Assembly: GCA_012862575.1 (NCBI GenBank)
Contig: BLSF01000040.1
Coordinates: 330,035-394,034 of the forward strand
From: Parietichytrium sp. I65-24A
Taxonomy: Eukaryota; Sar; Bigyra; Thraustochytrida; Thraustochytriidae
Direction of reading: 5' to 3'
DNA: 64,000 nucleotides
Part shown: piece after piece, positions 4,825-49,780 of the stretch
How the letters are laid out: the number at the start of each line of letters is the position of its first letter
Numbering within the stretch: the stretch's first letter is position 1
Notes under the pieces: model-generated
What the model saw: only the letters and a program-made list of their open reading frames with translations
What the model was told of the DNA's origin: nothing
Databases searched by the model: none
Made by a program: the position numbers and the translations under genes

Positions 4825-6933
4825 TCACTCGGGCGTGTCGCTGGAGCTGCATTCCTTGGCGCAGAGAGCATCCTCCAGGGCATTTCCGCATTGGTCAGGA
4901 GAGGTGACGTTGAGTATCCCGAGCACAATGATTCGGTTTTGGTAAGACATGTCTATACATGCTCTGCCTAAGGCGGTGCGGAGCGCAGGAAGGTCACTCT
5001 CCTCCGTTTTGGGCATCGAAACCGAGAGCTTTGTGCACAGTGCAGTCGGGTTCTGTAGTTGCTCAAGGCGGGGTGCTTCTCGAGTCAAGAGCTGGGCGAC
5101 GGCACGGCACACACTGCAGGTCGAGGATGCGAACGAAGGGCCAATCGCTCTCAGTAAATCTTGCCACGATTCCTGGCGTTCGCAAGAGCCGACAATGTCC
5201 TCGCACACACGCCGCGGCAAGTGCTGATCCTGTATATCACCCAACTTGACAAAGTATTGCAGCAATTCATCGAAGTGATCGTCCAGAATCAATTGACAAG
5301 AACGTGTGATTGCAAGTTTGGTTCTGGGCAGGTCTTCCTTTTTCAACGAGCCTGGCACATCCATAGGGAGTTTGTTGCACAGCTTCTCGAGAATGTCAAA
5401 ATGGACTTGCTCGCTATGTGCAAATGCAATCGTTTTCCTGTCACCGGCCAAGGTGTGTTTGCGGTCACTATAAAGTTCAGCGACCCGATCTTGGCGTAGC
5501 TGTGCTTGACGAAAAATCTGCAGGCAAATACAGCAAGAAGATCTTTGATTATAGCCCTCACACGGCAAGGTGTCAAGCCCAGCATTGGTAAGCTCTCGTA
5601 GCGCGGGGTCGGCGTCACGGCCGATCCACGGCTCCGCATATACGATCTGAGGCATCGAAAGGAATACTACAATAGCTATTATGGTCGGCGCAAACAGAAT
5701 TATGAAGCGCAAAACGCGCCCCAAGAAACCGGGGCCAGAGCGAGCAGGTTTGGGTTCTTGGACTCCGCTTGACGTGTCGAGGTGTTGCGAAGTTGTCTCA
5801 GCAGCTAAGGAATCCTCCTCCAGAACGCTAGGTTCTTGAGGTGGTTTGGGGCTGCGTGGCTCGGCAGGTTTACTTCCGGCTGTGACAGGTTTCAGGAAGC
5901 CATCGTACGCCATCTTCTTCCGCTCCTTGTATTCGCGAATAGACTGTTTAACAGAATTCGCTTCCTTTTGAATATTCCCAGCCTGTTTCGGATGGGCTTC
6001 CATCGCACGTTTGATGCAAGCTGTGGCTTCGACGTACTCGCCCAGTTTGGTGGAAACTCTGCTTGCCCGGAGTAGCGCCTTGAGATTACTTGGATCAATA
6101 CTAAGAACAGCAACGCAAGCATCTTTGGACTCTTTCCATTTCCCCTGCTTTTCGAAGCAAGCTGAGATGTTCCCGGCTGTCTCGGCTCGTAGCTTGATCA
6201 AGTCGGGGTTTGTATTGTACTCATCGTGCTGGTCAAGCTCTTGCTCTTCTGGTTCCTGCCCGGGAATCGTGGGGGTTGGGGGAGGCGGAAGGTGCGATTC
6301 GCTGTGTTTGAGTCCCTCCTGATAGCACCGAAGAGCCTTGTCCAGCACACCAATGCGAAAGAAGTGGTTTCCCCTCTCCTTGCGTCTCCGCACTGCCGCC
6401 ACAAGCTCGGTTGGGGTCATTTCCACGGGCTCCTTTTCAATTTCTCCCATCTTGACCAATTCCACACGCGCCTCGATGTCCTCGTTCGGGCCCAGATCCG
6501 GAGGGAGGCCCTGATCTGCATAGGCGAATCTGTGGCTCACGTGCACCACTGCCAGCTCGCCAGGCTTCATCATCCGTATGGCCAGCATGACTCCCGGGAC
6601 CACGGCCTCGAGCGTTTGGTCGCCCACAGTGACAAGAAGCGGGCCTTGTCCGCCAGTCCGGGAGTCAAAGAAGAGCTTGCCACTCGACTTGACGCGCATT
6701 TCCAAGTGCACGTACACATTTTGCTTAAATTCGGGTGCGTCACCTTGGCCTTGGCGCTCCACCTTCTTCAAAACTGCGCCGCTGCCTCCGAGAAGGTCTT
6801 TCCATTCCGTGTCCTGTGACTCCGCCATGCCAGCGGATTGCGCTCTCTCCTTGCCACTGATCCTTTCCGTGTCTGCCGCTGCGGCGAGTTTTCCGTGTGG
6901 GGGATGTGGGGGACGGATTCCTTCGGGCTCCAA
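4825..6933 (-). CDS. FKBP8-like FKBP/TPR membrane protein with canopy/saposin-like C-terminal region
   Basis: Numbering is for the 702-aa frame. The ATG at 6828-6826 (MAESQDTEW) is an equally good start. Residues about 52-163 are an FKBP fold of the FKBP8 type: the G-K-L-F-F-D-S-R strand is present, but the prolyl-isomerase Trp is replaced in LEAVVPGVML, so isomerase activity may be weak. Residues about 183-345 are TPR helices (RGNHFFRIGVLDKALRCYQE; GNISACFEKQGKWKES). A Pro/Glu linker leads to one transmembrane helix at 408-427 (FIILFAPTIIAIVVFL). FKBP8 ends there; here about 275 more residues follow, with ordered cysteines: C467/C470, C519, C546, C577, C584, then C606/C609, C633, C659, C682, C691/C695. 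The first set matches canopy/saposin-like spacing. Inferred topology: cytosolic co-chaperone half, ER-luminal disulfide-bonded half. Confidence 0.83.
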   Translation of the reverse strand: MEPEGIRPPHPPHGKLAAAADTERISGKERAQSAGMAESQDTEWKDLLGGSGAVLKKVERQGQGDAPEFKQNVYVHLEMRVKSSGKLFFDSRTGGQGPLLVTVGDQTLEAVVPGVMLAIRMMKPGELAVVHVSHRFAYADQGLPPDLGPNEDIEARVELVKMGEIEKEPVEMTPTELVAAVRRRKERGNHFFRIGVLDKALRCYQEGLKHSESHLPPPPTPTIPGQEPEEQELDQHDEYNTNPDLIKLRAETAGNISACFEKQGKWKESKDACVAVLSIDPSNLKALLRASRVSTKLGEYVEATACIKRAMEAHPKQAGNIQKEANSVKQSIREYKERKKMAYDGFLKPVTAGSKPAEPRSPKPPQEPSVLEEDSLAAETTSQHLDTSSGVQEPKPARSGPGFLGRVLRFIILFAPTIIAIVVFLSMPQIVYAEPWIGRDADPALRELTNAGLDTLPCEGYNQRSSCCICLQIFRQAQLRQDRVAELYSDRKHTLAGDRKTIAFAHSEQVHFDILEKLCNKLPMDVPGSLKKEDLPRTKLAITRSCQLILDDHFDELLQYFVKLGDIQDQHLPRRVCEDIVGSCERQESWQDLLRAIGPSFASSTCSVCRAVAQLLTREAPRLEQLQNPTALCTKLSVSMPKTEESDLPALRTALGRACIDMSYQNRIIVLGILNVTSPDQCGNALEDALCAKECSSSDTPE

Positions 6934-26729: not shown

Positions 26730-28766
26730 TCAAAAGTCAACACGGTCCAGGAAGCTCTCCACAGAGTCCTCGAGGTTGTCTTCACCCCCAGCGGGCGCCT
26801 CGGCTTTGGAGGACGAATACGCCGCCAGGACACGGTCGAGGTCAAGCTTCTTTGCGGATTCATCCGTGCCATCCCGCTTGTACACATGCGGGGCATACTC
26901 AACGAGCCAGTCGGGGCGGATCTTGGAGACCATGGGCACGTCTGGCGACAGCTCGGGAACGACAACCCATTCCGGGACGGGGCGAGCGTAGTCCACAAAG
27001 ACCGAGGGCCGCGCCAGGGTCATCCGCTGGCCCTCTCTGACCGCTACATAAGTATGGCCGTCCTGCGACAGCTTGGCCGCGTTCCAAAACAGCGAAGCGC
27101 ATAGGCAGCGTAAGAGGGAGTCCGAGTCTTCTTCACATGACAGTATCTGCGTGGCGTCCTCGCGCGCCATCGGCTTGACAGCGCGCAGCAGGTCGTCCCT
27201 CAGCGCTGCGGCCCTGGACAGCGCGTGGTGCCGGATCCCCAGGTGCTCGCACCAGCGCCTGCGCAGGCTCTTGGGCTGCGTCTCCCATCCCCGGAACAGG
27301 TTCACCAAGGTGACCAGGTCGCCATCCGCGCTGCCAAACAGTATCATACAGCTCTCCATCCTGTCCTTGCTGTCCTTGCTGTCCTTGCTGTCCGAGAGCG
27401 CGAGGTGGTAAAGCGGCTCATCGGCGTCCGCGAGGACCTGGAGCAGCGCCGCGAGCTGCAGCGCTTCCTGCGTGCAGCCAAATGCCAGCGACTGCAATAC
27501 AACGTTGGCTAGCGCGGGGCGCAGCGGCAGCAGGGCCACCAGACGCTCGCCCCTCGGCGCGACTAGCTCGCCGCGGTCGTCCAGCGCGCCAAGCGCATGC
27601 AGCTCGTCCAGCGCGCGCACGAGGGCCATGGCCGGCGGCGGGTCCGGCCCCAGCTCCACGTGCGCCACGTCGCGCACGCCAGCAGCCTTGAGCCGCAGCA
27701 CAGCCGCGCTCAGCTCTGCGTGCTGTAGCTCGGCTGGTGCCGCGGGCGCCAGCTCCCGCTCGAAGCACTCGCGCGTGCACAGCCGCAGCACCGTCACCGT
27801 CGCAAGCTGCCTGCCACCGCCGGCCAGCGCCATGCCGGCCGCCGCGCGCAATCCGGCCTCGCTCCTGCTCGCGAGCCCGACCGCCGCCGCGCCGCGCAGC
27901 GCCACGCCCGCGTGGGCGTCGAAGAAGCCCCTTCGCGCCGCCAGCATGGAGTCCACCACCGCCACGTTCCTGCCACTCGCGCCAGTCCCCGCGATCAGGT
28001 GCGCGAGCGGCTCGGCGTGCGCGGCGATCACGATCGCGCAGGGCGCCCTGCGTCGCGCGTGCTCCCGCGCGGCTGCCAGCTCGCCCGCGCGCGTCCAGAC
28101 CATCGCATCCACGCCCGCGCGCGCCACCATCTGCGCCACGCGACCGGCCTCGTCCGCCGCCGGCACGAACGCCAGCACCACCGCGCCGCCGCCGGCCAGC
28201 GACCGCACCGCGCGCGCGCACTCCTCCGACACGCGCGCGCACGGCTCCTCCAGGTACCGCACCACCGCCCGCATCCCGCGGGATCCACCACCGCCACCAG
28301 CGCCAGAACCGCCAGAAGAGGAGCGCGCGTCCGCCAGACGCACGCGCGAGTGACGTTCCAGGAACGCCGCCACGCGCCGCGCTTCCTCCGCCGCGCGGCA
28401 GGCCACCACGAGCACGGGCGCGGGCGCACCTTCCGCGCGGCGGGATCCCAATCCTGATCCCGATCCCAGTCTATACCGGGCGTGCATCCGCCGCGCCAGC
28501 GCCAGCTCCAGCGCGCCCGCGTCCACGCACACCACCTCCCCCGCGCGCGCCGCCGCCCGCCGCCGCGCCAGCCTCCGCGCCAGCTCGCGCGCCGTCACCA
28601 CGCCGTCCCCATCCCCGTCCTCATCCCCATGCACATCCCCTTCCCCGGCAACGTTCCCGCGCCGATGCGGATGCCTGCGCGCGAGGCGGGCGGCCAGTGC
28701 GCGCGCCTGGTCCCCGCGGTCGCAGAGGACCACCACCGCCACTGCCCGCAGGTCCGCGGACACCAT
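26730..28766 (-). CDS. degenerate DHX35-like DEAH-box helicase (probable pseudo-helicase)
   Basis: 678 aa, single exon. The C-terminal half follows DEAH/RHA helicases closely: winged-helix and ratchet region (LSAAVLRLKAAGVRDVAHV; ALDELHALGALDDRGELVAP; SLAFGCTQEALQLAALLQVL) and OB-fold with the terminal signature IRPDWLVEYAPHVYKR, as in DHX35. The helicase core is eroded. The protein starts near motif Ia with no Walker A. The DEAH site aligns with CVDAGALE, SAT with ACR, and the QRxGRxGR arginine-finger motif with the Ala/Gly-rich AGLRAAAGMALAGGGR. ATP hydrolysis is therefore unlikely. A missing upstream exon is improbable because the divergent Josephin gene starts 68-137 bp away. The 5' two thirds is very GC-rich. 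DHX35 relatives act in spliceosomes; a retained scaffolding role is inference. An SDSKDSKDSKD tract is a small coding repeat. Confidence 0.75.
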   Translation of the reverse strand: MVSADLRAVAVVVLCDRGDQARALAARLARRHPHRRGNVAGEGDVHGDEDGDGDGVVTARELARRLARRRAAARAGEVVCVDAGALELALARRMHARYRLGSGSGLGSRRAEGAPAPVLVVACRAAEEARRVAAFLERHSRVRLADARSSSGGSGAGGGGGSRGMRAVVRYLEEPCARVSEECARAVRSLAGGGAVVLAFVPAADEAGRVAQMVARAGVDAMVWTRAGELAAAREHARRRAPCAIVIAAHAEPLAHLIAGTGASGRNVAVVDSMLAARRGFFDAHAGVALRGAAAVGLASRSEAGLRAAAGMALAGGGRQLATVTVLRLCTRECFERELAPAAPAELQHAELSAAVLRLKAAGVRDVAHVELGPDPPPAMALVRALDELHALGALDDRGELVAPRGERLVALLPLRPALANVVLQSLAFGCTQEALQLAALLQVLADADEPLYHLALSDSKDSKDSKDRMESCMILFGSADGDLVTLVNLFRGWETQPKSLRRRWCEHLGIRHHALSRAAALRDDLLRAVKPMAREDATQILSCEEDSDSLLRCLCASLFWNAAKLSQDGHTYVAVREGQRMTLARPSVFVDYARPVPEWVVVPELSPDVPMVSKIRPDWLVEYAPHVYKRDGTDESAKKLDLDRVLAAYSSSKAEAPAGGEDNLEDSVESFLDRVDF

Positions 28767-41794: not shown

Positions 41795-42562
41795 TGGCGT
41801 CACTTGTCCTTCATGGCTGTATTAGATTGGGGCCATCGCACTGTACCATTCTCGCACATTTGGGGTGGGTTCCGTGGTGGAGCCCTCACCTCTTCTCTCT
41901 GATGTCAATCTTGACTTGCAAAACGTTTCACCTGTTGATTTCGACGCCGATATCGCTCAAGCTCTCGTAAAATGCTTTGCGAGACAAACTTCTACTTTCT
42001 CCACTCCCTTCTCTCCAATAAATTGAAACGGAAATAGCATATTGTACGAACCTTACCTTCGAACCATTTCGAACCACGCCGCATCCGATCGATATCCACC
42101 ACCACACTCACCACACACTGCCTGCTTTGGTTAGCGAGTAGCACTAATAGCTCATAGTAGCTACTAGAGCACACTCTCGCTCTCATCGCGTCACTTAGGA
42201 CCCCGCGTGACGAGATCCAGCCCGTCGCTCCAGGCGACTTGGCAGACTTGGCTCATCTTGGCTCACATGGCTTATTTTCTTCATTCATTTTTTCTAAATT
42301 CTAATCACTTTGCTCGACTTGCCAGGGACGCAAGTCTCCGCCGGAAAGCCACGCAGCCGGACAAAGTCATAGACAGATTGATAGATTGATAGACTGATAG
42401 ATTGATAGATTGATAGATTGAGAAGCAGAAAAACCAGAGAGGTCGAAGAGGTTGAAGAGAGGAGCCTAAGGCTGGAAGTATCGCAGTAGAGAACAAGTCA
42501 AGTGCGGCCTCCAAGTCGGCAAGGCGGAAGGAGGGTGTGATGCGCAGTTCGCGCCTGGCGCG
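41795..42562. other. intergenic spacer
   Basis: Same-strand spacer upstream of the Kir gene. It contains a GATT/GATA microsatellite at 42373-42421 and a purine-rich leader after it. No gene seen. Confidence 0.5.
42373..42421. repeat. GATT/GATA microsatellite
   Basis: Alternating GATA and GATT tetramers, about 49 bp, 140 bp upstream of the Kir start codon. Confidence 0.85.
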
Positions 42563-45214
42563 ATGGAAGAAGGCTCTGCGTCGCCAGCAGTCCGCGTCCC
42601 GGTGCCCGATAGCAGGTCTATGAGCGCGAGCGAGCAGCCTCAGCGACAGCAGGAGCGTGTGCTTGGGAATGGAGAAGGGCGCAATGACGGTGGCCCGCGA
42701 CACGGCAGCCTGGAGGACGACAATACGGAAGGCGAATCGGAGGAGGACGTGAGGCTGGACGTGGAAGATAGGCTGCATTCGACACAGTCGTCGTCGAGGT
42801 CGTTCGTGGGGTCGTGGATGGCCATCAAAAAATACCTGTCTAGCGGAAGGGACGCGCGGATGAGTTCCAGGAGCTGGGCTCATCGGCGGTCCAGGAGTGG
42901 GTCGAGCAGGTCGCGCAGTAGGTCGAGTAGGTCGAGCAGATCGCGAACCCGGTCGAGCAGGTCGAGGTCGTCGGGACAGAGTAGCGCCAGCAGCAGGTCG
43001 CACCGGAGGCGAGTGACGAGCATTTCCAACATCTTCTCACATATGAGCAGCATGCATTCAGGCAGCGGGGATGTGTACTCTGTAAGCGACGTGGGGTGGT
43101 CCACGCGGATCCTGGCGCGGGATAAAACTTTCAACCAATGCTCTGGAAATCTCATCATCGACCAAGTGGCCACAAAGCAGGCGCTGCGCAACATCCTGAC
43201 TTTGTACACGGATGACTGGTTTCATCGCGTTTTAACCCAAAGGCTCTGGGTTATCATGGCAGGGATGGCCTTCATTTACTCGTGCTATCTCCTCTTCTTT
43301 GCCGGCATCTACTACTCCTTCGCGACCCCGGATAACGAGCTCTGTGCCTTAGACCCTGACTCAGAGATCCACGCTTTCCAGATGTCCTTCGCCTTTGCTT
43401 TGGAGACGGCTGCTACCTCAGGCTACGGCCTCCCGAGTGACAACACGAGGTCGTTTTGGGAGGCGTGCTCCTCTAGCCCGGTGACAGTGTGGTTCCAAAG
43501 CTTTTTCGGGATCCTCATCAATGCGCTGACCATTGGTCTCGTCGTCATGCGCCTCGGTAGAGCGGATCTTCGCGCTCATCAAGTGATTTTCAGCAACAAG
43601 GCCTGCATCACATTCATCGACGGCAAGTTTCACTTATCATTTCAGGTGTATGACTTGGACATTCATGCACCAATCGTTGAAGCTCACGTTCGAACATACG
43701 CCGTCCTCAATGAAAGCGATGGGATCTCTTTAGCCCATTTTCAAACGCGTTATATGCGTTTGCAGAATCCCAACGATGACCTTGGGTCTGGCTTGTTCTT
43801 GAGCGTACCTTGCACTGTCGTGCACGCAATTGATCAGTGGAGCCCTCTTTTGCCGCCCTCTTTGCGAAGGGAGCACTGGGTCACCCACGACGACAATTTT
43901 ACTCACAATGCCGCAAATCGGTATCAATACCCCAATATGGTTCTTCGTGAAACCGATGCCAGCTGCGGGGACCGCAGCGGTGCCTCATGCCCAGCGTGTG
44001 GCTACGAATACAACAACGACGAGGACCTCTTTCGTCATGTGCGGTACAGTCAGCATGTCGAAGCCATTTTATACCGCAGCCGAGCAGATGACGAGAAAAC
44101 CGAGTATGGAGGGAGAGTGCGCCGCGACTCTGAATTGAGCGGCATCTCAGGCTTTCATTCGGATACCTCGCGGAGTGCGCATGACTATATTACAGATGAA
44201 GATGACGCGCACCTTGAAGGTTTGGATACTTCACCTTCTGGCAAGCTATTGGCGATGACGGAAGAACTTCCTGAGCCACTTAATCTCCGCCGCGCTTCGC
44301 TTGTGAGCCCGGCGCCTTCCCCAAGTCCTCCGCCGGTCACCCCGACGAAGACGCAGAAAAAAGTCGACCAACACCAGGCAACAGATACTTCGAAGTCGTC
44401 ACTCCCTGAGGGTGAGGACTATCACACGGCCGAAGAGGCGTCCGTTTCCGAGCAGCGTACAATAGGATCTCGGAGCCGCCAAGACAGTGACTCAAGTGTG
44501 AGGAGTTTCAAGAGCCACTATAGCATGAGGAGTCACCTCAGCGCAAAGAGCATGCGAAGTGCGCACACCCATCACAGTGATCAGCACTCTGTCCGGTATA
44601 CCAACTCGCAGAAGAAATTAGCAAGAGAGTACGATGAACAAGTCCGTCGAGGAGGCTCCAAGAGCATCCATCAGCACAAAACTGTCCTGTTGGGGAGGAC
44701 GCCTCCAACTGTCGATAAGCAACTAAAGGAGCTAACTGACCTCAACCGCCTGGTGGGTCACGCAAATATTGACCTGGAAAACCTCATGACACATGACCGG
44801 ATCCTCACCCAAGAGGAGCTCACTAGAGAGGAGATTGAGCAAGAGGAACGGGAGCGGATGTCTCAGCACTCCAGGCCAAGGCCAGATCGCCAAGCTACCG
44901 CTAGTACAACTAAACCAAGGTCCAAAGTTGCGGACGACGTCAGATCCAAGCTCCGCGACTTCATTCTGCAAAGCGAGCTTGAAATCATTGTCATCGTGGA
45001 AGGTATCGAAGCTCAGTCTTCCATGACGTTTCAGGCGCGACACTCGTATACATACGACGACATCGTTTTCGATGAGTGGTTCGAGGAATGCTTTTACAAA
45101 AACGAAGAAACTGGCCAATTGACAATCGACCTTGATAAATTCCATGAGACTAGACCGGTGCGTCTAGACGAAGAGGGTCGCCCCGTGAATGTCCCAGTTC
45201 AATCTGTATTGTAG
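42563..45214 (+). CDS. inward-rectifier-type (Kir) potassium channel with RS-rich N-terminus and zinc-finger-bearing insertion
   Basis: 883 aa, single exon. Residues about 105-150 are Arg/Ser repeats. TM1 is about 228-250, the filter is T285-S286-G287-Y288-G289 (most Kirs have TIGYG), and TM2 is 308-328 with N320 at the site of the Kir2.1 rectification Asp, which predicts weak rectification. The cytoplasmic domain starts normally: IFSNKACITFIDGKFHL, IVEAHVRTYAVLN, TVVHAIDQWSPL. It is then interrupted at about 435-796 by a Ser-rich, disordered insertion. Inside it C476-x2-C479-x12-H492-x5-H498 has a C2H2 zinc-finger spacing. The domain resumes at 797: LEIIVIVEGIEA, SMTFQARHSYTYDDI, DLDKFHETRPV, the standard Kir C-terminal strands. 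Both halves of the Ig-like domain are intact, so the insertion replaces an ordinary surface loop. Confidence 0.9.
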   Translation: MEEGSASPAVRVPVPDSRSMSASEQPQRQQERVLGNGEGRNDGGPRHGSLEDDNTEGESEEDVRLDVEDRLHSTQSSSRSFVGSWMAIKKYLSSGRDARMSSRSWAHRRSRSGSSRSRSRSSRSSRSRTRSSRSRSSGQSSASSRSHRRRVTSISNIFSHMSSMHSGSGDVYSVSDVGWSTRILARDKTFNQCSGNLIIDQVATKQALRNILTLYTDDWFHRVLTQRLWVIMAGMAFIYSCYLLFFAGIYYSFATPDNELCALDPDSEIHAFQMSFAFALETAATSGYGLPSDNTRSFWEACSSSPVTVWFQSFFGILINALTIGLVVMRLGRADLRAHQVIFSNKACITFIDGKFHLSFQVYDLDIHAPIVEAHVRTYAVLNESDGISLAHFQTRYMRLQNPNDDLGSGLFLSVPCTVVHAIDQWSPLLPPSLRREHWVTHDDNFTHNAANRYQYPNMVLRETDASCGDRSGASCPACGYEYNNDEDLFRHVRYSQHVEAILYRSRADDEKTEYGGRVRRDSELSGISGFHSDTSRSAHDYITDEDDAHLEGLDTSPSGKLLAMTEELPEPLNLRRASLVSPAPSPSPPPVTPTKTQKKVDQHQATDTSKSSLPEGEDYHTAEEASVSEQRTIGSRSRQDSDSSVRSFKSHYSMRSHLSAKSMRSAHTHHSDQHSVRYTNSQKKLAREYDEQVRRGGSKSIHQHKTVLLGRTPPTVDKQLKELTDLNRLVGHANIDLENLMTHDRILTQEELTREEIEQEERERMSQHSRPRPDRQATASTTKPRSKVADDVRSKLRDFILQSELEIIVIVEGIEAQSSMTFQARHSYTYDDIVFDEWFEECFYKNEETGQLTIDLDKFHETRPVRLDEEGRPVNVPVQSVL

Positions 45215-48991: not shown

Positions 48992-49780
48992 GTGGTCGGG
49001 GCCGGGCACAAAGGCAAGATGACACACGAAGCGGAGAAATACCACTTTCTTATCAAAATCGCAATCGTCGGCGACAGAGACGTCGGCAAAACTCAGTTGC
49101 TGCAAGCCGAGGACAACGTTGACCCCAATGTCCCTGTTGCGGGGTTTGGATGGGGGACAGCAGAGCCGCGCGGTAACCCGAGCTCGCAAAGTCTCGGGCT
49201 ACAGCACTCGGCGGGCTCCTCCTTTATCAGGTTCAAAACGCGGGACTATACCTTTGGGGATATGGTGTACCGGATGCAGTATTGGGATTGCCCCGGCTCA
49301 GAAAAGTATATAGAGCTCACAACAAGGTATTGTGCTGGCACGTCCGGCATAATTCTCATGTTCGATCTGACGAGGCAGAGCTCATTCGAAAAAGCAAAAG
49401 AGTGGCTGGCGCATCTTCAAGAGCTCAACAAACACTCTGTGAAAATCTTAGTTGGAAACAAGGACAATTGTCTCAGCAGTCCCCGCCAAGTAGCTCGCTC
49501 GCAAGCCGAGGAGTTTGCGCGCTACCACGGCATGACTTATTTTGAAACGGACGCACTATCAAACATCCGCTGCCAGGCCGTATTTCACGACATTTTCCTT
49601 CAAATTGTAGAGGCGATCCCGCGGCCCCCTGAACCGCGATTCCTTGTGGACACGGGTATTAAAATTGGTCCTGCTTTACTCAATGACAAGGCGTATCGCT
49701 CTACTCTGGCCTCAGATTCTGCAAATCATCTTAGCCTTGGGTCACACAACCACATATCTTTTGCCATGGATTGGCTTTGA
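48992..49780 (+). CDS. divergent Rab/Ras-like small GTPase without prenylation site
   Basis: 262 aa from the first ATG; the ATG at 49019 (MTHEAEKYHF, 253 aa) is likelier and is used for numbering. The P-loop G18-D-R-D-V-G-K-T25 is canonical. G3 reads WDCPGSEKY instead of WDTAGQE, so the catalytic Gln is Ser. G4 reads GNKDNC instead of NKxD, putting Asn where guanine-specifying Asp belongs. G5 reads ETDALS for ETSAL. A ~35-residue insertion (Gly/Pro/Ser-rich) sits between P-loop and switch I/II. The C-terminus (SFAMDWL) has no cysteine, so no prenyl anchor. RASSF-like effectors cannot be deduced. IFT27/RABL-type and other non-prenylated Rab-like proteins are the nearest class I can name; exact orthology is unclear. 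Confidence 0.83.
   Translation: MVGAGHKGKMTHEAEKYHFLIKIAIVGDRDVGKTQLLQAEDNVDPNVPVAGFGWGTAEPRGNPSSQSLGLQHSAGSSFIRFKTRDYTFGDMVYRMQYWDCPGSEKYIELTTRYCAGTSGIILMFDLTRQSSFEKAKEWLAHLQELNKHSVKILVGNKDNCLSSPRQVARSQAEEFARYHGMTYFETDALSNIRCQAVFHDIFLQIVEAIPRPPEPRFLVDTGIKIGPALLNDKAYRSTLASDSANHLSLGSHNHISFAMDWL

Follow-up and report, generated by a model that had tools for sequence, protein, structure and literature searches.

The gene at 42563-45214 on the forward strand of the window (the whole 64,000-nucleotide stretch of DNA analysed here) encodes, judging by its sequence, a Kir (inward-rectifier) channel whose IRK_C domain is split by residues 432-802. On comparison with its paralogs this insertion is layered, with a linker partly common to the three Kirs of the genome and a zinc-finger-like block and a long arm found in two of them. 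The best explanation that we can offer, and one to which we give about an even chance, is a Kir with a finger-plus-tether docking module placed immediately ahead of the strand that runs into the G-loop gate. The features concerned are the following.

42563..45214, forward strand: Kir-family channel open reading frame, one frame of 883 codons (883 aa) free of internal stops
42863..43015, forward strand: Arg/Ser-rich N-terminal tract (approximately residues 101-151), lying on tandem DNA repeats
43187..43561, forward strand: transmembrane and pore region (Pfam IRK, residues 209-333)
43415..43429, forward strand: selectivity filter TSGYG (residues 285-289)
43520..43522, forward strand: N320, rectification-site position
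43562..43855, forward strand: cytoplasmic Kir domain, first half (residues 334-431)
43856..44968, forward strand: whole insertion (residues 432-802, 371 aa), placed by phmmer, paralogs and alignment
43856..43963, forward strand: linker (residues 432-467), from the paralog comparison
43964..44062, forward strand: finger block (residues 468-500)
44063..44920, forward strand: Ser-rich arm (residues 501-786, 286 residues), predicted to be mostly disordered with few helices
44921..44968, forward strand: predicted helix returning into the Kir domain (approximately residues 787-802)
44969..45166, forward strand: cytoplasmic Kir domain, second half (residues 803-868), its first strand running into the G-loop position

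Both the IRK and the IRK_C domain pass their Pfam cut-offs in this protein, as expected of a member of the Kir family: IRK matches residues 209-333 (E 2.8e-9, 37.4 bits against a cut-off of 22.7), while IRK_C matches in two separate stretches (E 1.1e-19, 71.2 bits against a cut-off of 22.5), the stronger one being residues 801-868, and each half is above the cut-off on its own in the profile search of the genome (36.4 and 39.7 bits against 22.5). Besides these two families, Pfam returned solely a sub-cut-off Ion_trans match for the full-length protein. The selectivity filter follows the T-x-G-[YF]-G pattern of Kir channels. The top PDB chain in a phmmer search is Kir2.1 (7zdz_A, E 8.5e-22), which aligns in two blocks, residues 229-431 with chain positions 84-281 and residues 803-866 with 289-350. 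An earlier sequence-only reading of this DNA had proposed an insertion of about 360 residues inside an otherwise complete Kir cytoplasmic domain, and this is borne out, the insertion being 371 residues long with Kir matches on both sides. It ends at the strand EIIVIVEG, the end of which holds the G-loop position, named after the G-loop of known Kir structures; 11 residues separate the end of the insertion from G814, the Gly at that position.

The animal Kirs compared (Kir2.1, Kir2.2, Kir6.2 and GIRK2) have the two-helix pore and the cytoplasmic domain that the window protein matches on both sides of its insertion. At the insertion site itself the loop is 7 residues long in Kir2.1 by phmmer (7zdz_A, chain 281 to 289) and 9 in Kir6.2 (7w4o_A, 268 to 278), against 371 by phmmer, or 371-372, in the window protein. 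A short loop before the G-loop strand is a usual trait of Kir channels, though not among their defining domains, and the window protein lacks it. KirBac channels have the same domain pair and a G-loop strand that can be aligned; none of the 20 bacterial rows of alignment A4 (4 from 80 loci, 14 from 18 loci and 2 from plasmid records) has residues in the insertion columns. Among Pseudomonadota, 16 of 398 genomes carry IRK_C, which matches in one unbroken stretch in each of them. None of the other channels compared shows a finger-like module on a long flexible arm inside the Kir gating domain.

Structure prediction of the interrupted domain, which had been proposed as a check, yields a Kir fold around the insertion. 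The large AlphaFold2 (AF2) model (residues 176-883, 21 aligned sequences) has a mean pLDDT of 57.4 and a pTM of 0.45, with ten-residue means of 62-94 over most pore and cytoplasmic strands and of 40-57 at about residues 386-415. Foldseek places Kir structures first among its PDB matches (best E 4.0e-12). Two of the 50 matches listed span the insertion, Kir2.2 (3spc, 666 columns, TM by target 0.57) and GIRK2 (3syp, 672 columns, TM by target 0.66), and the other 48 align over 222-277 columns only; together with the AF2 model, these two matches point to a complete, if predicted, cytoplasmic fold. Within the insertion the same model has a strand-strand-helix at residues 474-515, with moderate ten-residue means of 65-73, followed by an arm that is mostly below 40 with short predicted helices, the firmest lying at about residues 750-768 (one block at 82). 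A beta-beta-alpha finger followed by a mostly disordered arm is accordingly what the models predict.

Family searches of the 42.5 Mb, 172-contig genome recovered three Kir genes, in all of which IRK_C matches twice, in separate stretches: the window gene (contig C40, 883 aa), P0002 (contig C63, 732 aa) and P0003 (contig C57, L007:1948-3303, reverse strand), the last of these being a 451-codon frame that opens at TTG and has its first ATG further in. The C40 and C63 genes form the closest pair: in the part of the cytoplasmic domain that precedes the insertion they agree at 69 of 98 residues, and C40 and C57 at 41 of 97. A search for the same insertion in homologs, another of the proposed checks, finds a homologous one in P0002, about 306 residues long (counted by eye) and at the same point as in the window gene. 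P0003 matches Kir channels strongly (E 4.7e-34 to Kir2.1); its loop, which carries no finger, measures about 55 residues, against 5 for Kir2.1 in the same comparison. Six linker positions (H448, Y454, P457, V460, R462 and D465) are invariant across the three paralogs.

An artefact of the gene model, in which residues 432-802 or most of them would be an intron, is very improbable. The weak conservation of the arm (57 of 181 aligned residues identical, with 105 of its 286 residues unaligned) would suit it, but the insertion is open in both paralogs, the arm being stop-free at 501-780 in C40 and at 421-635 in C63 (3.3e-5 and 7.7e-4, respectively, under an order-1 Markov model trained on the stretch itself). 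Codon differences between C40 and C63 also speak against an intron. At codon positions 1, 2 and 3 they number 8, 9 and 27 in the finger block (33 codons), a coding-type change with the third-position bias that purifying selection and numerous silent substitutions would leave; the corresponding counts are 25, 17 and 68 in the Kir part before the insertion (98 codons), 17, 14 and 24 in the linker (36 codons), where the position bias is weaker and less clear, and 109, 84 and 126 in the arm (181 aligned codons), where there is little constraint. Thirteen in-frame GT-AG pairs join codons 428-470 to codons 770-806, using four GT sites, and none of these four is a GTRAG-like donor, nor was an in-frame GT[AG]AG donor found at codons 500-560; the scan covered in-frame GT-AG pairs within these ranges. 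Finally, the neighbouring Ras-like gene is a single frame, P-loop included. We have therefore set the intron reading aside, given the open frames in two paralogs, the coding-type change and the lack of splice-like pairs in the scanned ranges.

The finger block of the window protein contains the motif C476-x2-C479-x3-Y483-x5-L489-x2-H492-x5-H498, in which both the Cys-Cys-His-His spacing and the hydrophobic core (Y483 and L489) of a C2H2 finger are present; the C-x2-C-x12-H-x5-H pattern reported earlier at 476, 479, 492 and 498 is thus confirmed. When the residues of the window protein were shuffled, C-x2-C-x12-H-x3-5-H arose in 38 of 100,000 shuffles and the version also carrying the aromatic and Leu core in 0 of 100,000, this stricter pattern having been written after the motif was seen. 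That the four positions would be kept in homologs, a prediction by which the sequence-only reading could have failed, holds for three of them: C468, C476, C479 and H492 are conserved between the window protein and P0002, the single finger-bearing homolog, and H498 is replaced by Trp there, so that P0002 keeps three of the four C2H2 ligands.

Searches with an 82-aa fragment of the window protein and with a fragment of P0002 indicate that the finger resembles C2H2 fingers yet stays below Pfam cut-offs. Against Pfam, the window fragment matches zf-C2H2_4 (E 0.0069) and zf-C2H2 (E 0.056), both below cut-off and both behind the unrelated RepSA (E 0.0022, likewise sub-cut-off), and the best row for the P0002 fragment is zf-C2H2 (E 3.8e-4, 21.2 bits against a cut-off of 25.2). 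For PF00096 and PF13894 the bit scores are 14.4 and 17.5 with the window fragment and 21.2 and 21.0 with that of P0002, against cut-offs of 25.2 and 27. At full length the window protein has no zinc-finger family match in Pfam and P0002 matches zf-C2H2_4 at E 0.0035; NCBIfam gave one chance-level row for the three proteins. Among PDB sequences the window fragment has 18 matches at E <=10, including the consensus zinc finger 1mey_C (E 1.9e-5), the P0002 fragment has 65 at E <=1, with zinc-finger chains starting at E 4.6e-9, and a profile of both fragments again matches zinc-finger chains. Chains with several fingers gain such whole-chain E-values by adding up numerous weak stretches: in Aart (2i13), no single stretch does better than an i-Evalue of 1.8. 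Elsewhere in the 42.5 Mb genome the finger fragment matched nothing besides the C40 and C63 genes at E <=1, in a search that scores first-look candidates only.

Compared with classical C2H2 fingers (Pfam PF00096 and PF13894; PDB 1mey), the window protein shares the C-x2-C-x3-[FY]-x5-L-x2-H-x5-H arrangement, and the strand-strand-helix is matched in two AF2 runs; unlike them, its finger is single and below the Pfam cut-off, and the last His is missing in P0002. The second run, on an 84-aa fragment (two sequences, no metal), has a mean pLDDT of 52.2 and forms the strand-strand-helix at residues 474-511 with ten-residue means of 51-66. Foldseek of this weak model gave 204 matches at E <=10, 0 of 204 at <=0.001, with a best E of 0.78. 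Among the best 50 of these 204 rows, 35 are titled zinc finger, ZnF or ZF, three more (GAGA factor, BCL11A and TZAP) we presume to be C2H2 proteins, and 12 are other proteins; for this fragment model the result is consistent with a zinc finger and is not proof of one. A weak match to the fragment (E 1.5) is the Nizp1 finger (2nab), which is C2HR by its title and lacks the fourth His, as P0002 does. The Nizp1 C2HR finger has a protein-binding role.

The ligand pattern could also be read as a cytosolic zinc or redox sensor, in which C468, C476, C479 and H492 (CCCH) would hold zinc and its release would alter channel opening. These four are the sole Cys or His conserved in block 468-500 of both finger-bearing paralogs, and the site adjoins the G-loop strand. 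C468, however, stands 8 residues before C476, a spacing that to our knowledge matches no standard CCCH finger, and the profile likeness is to classical C2H2 fingers, so that we consider a sensor of this kind quite unlikely.

As the main alternative to a docking module, a permissive surface loop could have expanded because the channel tolerates it, the finger then being a relic or a structural plug and the arm having no specific role. The weak conservation of the arm and its mostly disordered AF2 model would be expected in that case, P0003 persists with its loop of about 55 residues and no finger, the fourth C2H2 ligand is missing in P0002, and the same protein carries another expanded segment, the repeat-borne Arg/Ser tract. 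Against this, the differences between C40 and C63 in the finger block fall mainly at third positions, as they do in the Kir part preceding it, and the invariant linker residues in three paralogs point the same way, though the linker as a whole is less biased by codon position. Such an expansion is possible, if rather improbable in our estimation.

As for the Arg/Ser-rich N-terminus itself, the tract noted earlier is present but is not a conserved module: it lies over tandem DNA repeats (42888-42966) and is absent from both P0002 and P0003, and we have rejected it as such on the latter ground. Separately, an 8-base tandem repeat (AGATTGAT, 5.9 copies) occupies window positions 42375-42421, about 140 bases upstream of the Kir start codon. 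The presence of a C2H2 motif and an Arg/Ser tract in one polypeptide might suggest that the two contact nucleic acid or splicing factors, and that the channel, or a piece cleaved off it, acts on gene expression. The finger is single, however, with membrane channel on both sides; Pfam finds no RNA-recognition motif beside the tract, such as an SR-type splicing factor has, and no other nucleic-acid domain in the full protein; and the finger-bearing P0002 has no Arg/Ser tract. We regard a role of this kind as barely plausible.

Two further features, the filter and N320, had likewise been singled out as unusual. This holds for the filter, where the Ser of TSGYG differs from both paralogs (TIGYG in P0002, and TIGYT in P0003, where Thr replaces the final Gly) and from the Kir2.1 and Kir6.2 rows (T-I-G-Y/F-G, in channels without a finger). 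Because of the Thr in its filter, the potassium selectivity of P0003 appears doubtful. It does not hold for N320, which we reject as an oddity: the rectification site has Asn in the C40 and C63 proteins, Asp in P0003, and Asn again in the Kir6.2 row, making it an ordinary residue.

Under the docking-module explanation, the cytoplasmic domain of a tetrameric Kir subunit would fold around the insertion of about 370 residues, which would enter the loop immediately before the beta strand leading into the G-loop gate and present one C2H2-like zinc finger, then the mostly disordered Ser-rich arm, then the return helix. The finger may serve as a place where other proteins dock, with a zinc ion holding it together at C476, C479 and H492, plus either H498 or C468. 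Kir subunits assemble as tetramers, and such a channel would carry four fingers around its cytoplasmic domain. When a partner binds, or the arm is phosphorylated, the G-loop strand could be put under tension or steadied, which would set channel activity; fixed at this strand, the module could influence the gate in the role of docking site or of sensor. That the lineage of this genome evolved a whole subfamily of finger-gated Kir channels, with four fingers (one from each subunit) wired to the G-loop strand, in which binding to the finger, or zinc or redox chemistry at the CCCH residues, opens or closes the pore, is a bolder proposal that we hold to be unlikely. Zinc in the cytoplasmic part of a potassium channel, as proposed here, has a parallel in Kv channels, whose T1 domains hold zinc sites, but the T1 domain is an N-terminal BTB fold with intersubunit zinc and has no relation to a C2H2 finger set into a Kir domain.

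Pattern searches of contig collections returned 0 relatives, with 27 (A1), 11 (A6) and 72 (A3) pattern matches in viral contigs and 27 (A1) in genome contigs; these collections consist of viral, bacterial and archaeal sequence and say little about other protists. In a partial library, no paper on a finger-bearing Kir was found among the matches listed, and none joining the name of this protist group with inward rectifiers. The authors of a study of a trypanosome cation channel describe it as having no significant identity to Kir channels (PMC3369953).

Several other genes of the window and the genome can be described briefly. The Ras-like GTPase frame (window 48992-49780, forward strand; Pfam Ras E 2.3e-27) has an apparent insertion of its own after the P-loop, which lies in frame at 49070, the Ras match starting from profile position 34. 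A 678-aa frame at 26730-28766 (reverse strand), with weak matches to OB_NTP_bind, HA2_N and HA2_C that are all below cut-off, is perhaps a piece of a DEAH-type helicase gene. A cytochrome P450 (2849-4669, reverse strand; E 5.1e-60) lies beside an FKBP-TPR protein (4825-6933, reverse strand; FKBP_C E 6.9e-9). Outside the window, the mitochondrial contig C141 (L121, G000:C141:21000-30900) encodes COX1 by Pfam, in two overlapping partial matches that are perhaps an assembly duplication, within a stretch containing runs of N, along with frames that we take to be cox2, nad9 and cob. The gene bodies read on this contig contain no TTA codon, with TTG and CTN common, and the few TTA in its frames stand before presumed start codons or, in COX1, after an ambiguous base. 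TTA is a stop in the mitochondrial code of Thraustochytrium (NCBI table 23), which the codon usage seen here would fit, and the host is on this ground probably a thraustochytrid or a near relative of one.

Gating in Kir channels depends on a compactly built cytoplasmic domain, and the loop that takes up the insertion directly precedes the strand bearing the G-loop gate. If a finger and an arm of 286 residues are tolerated, or put to use, at this place, the channel would offer a natural experiment on how the gate senses force or binding at this loop. It would also reveal a permissive insertion site for engineered Kir regulators, and it adds a channel architecture from a protist group.
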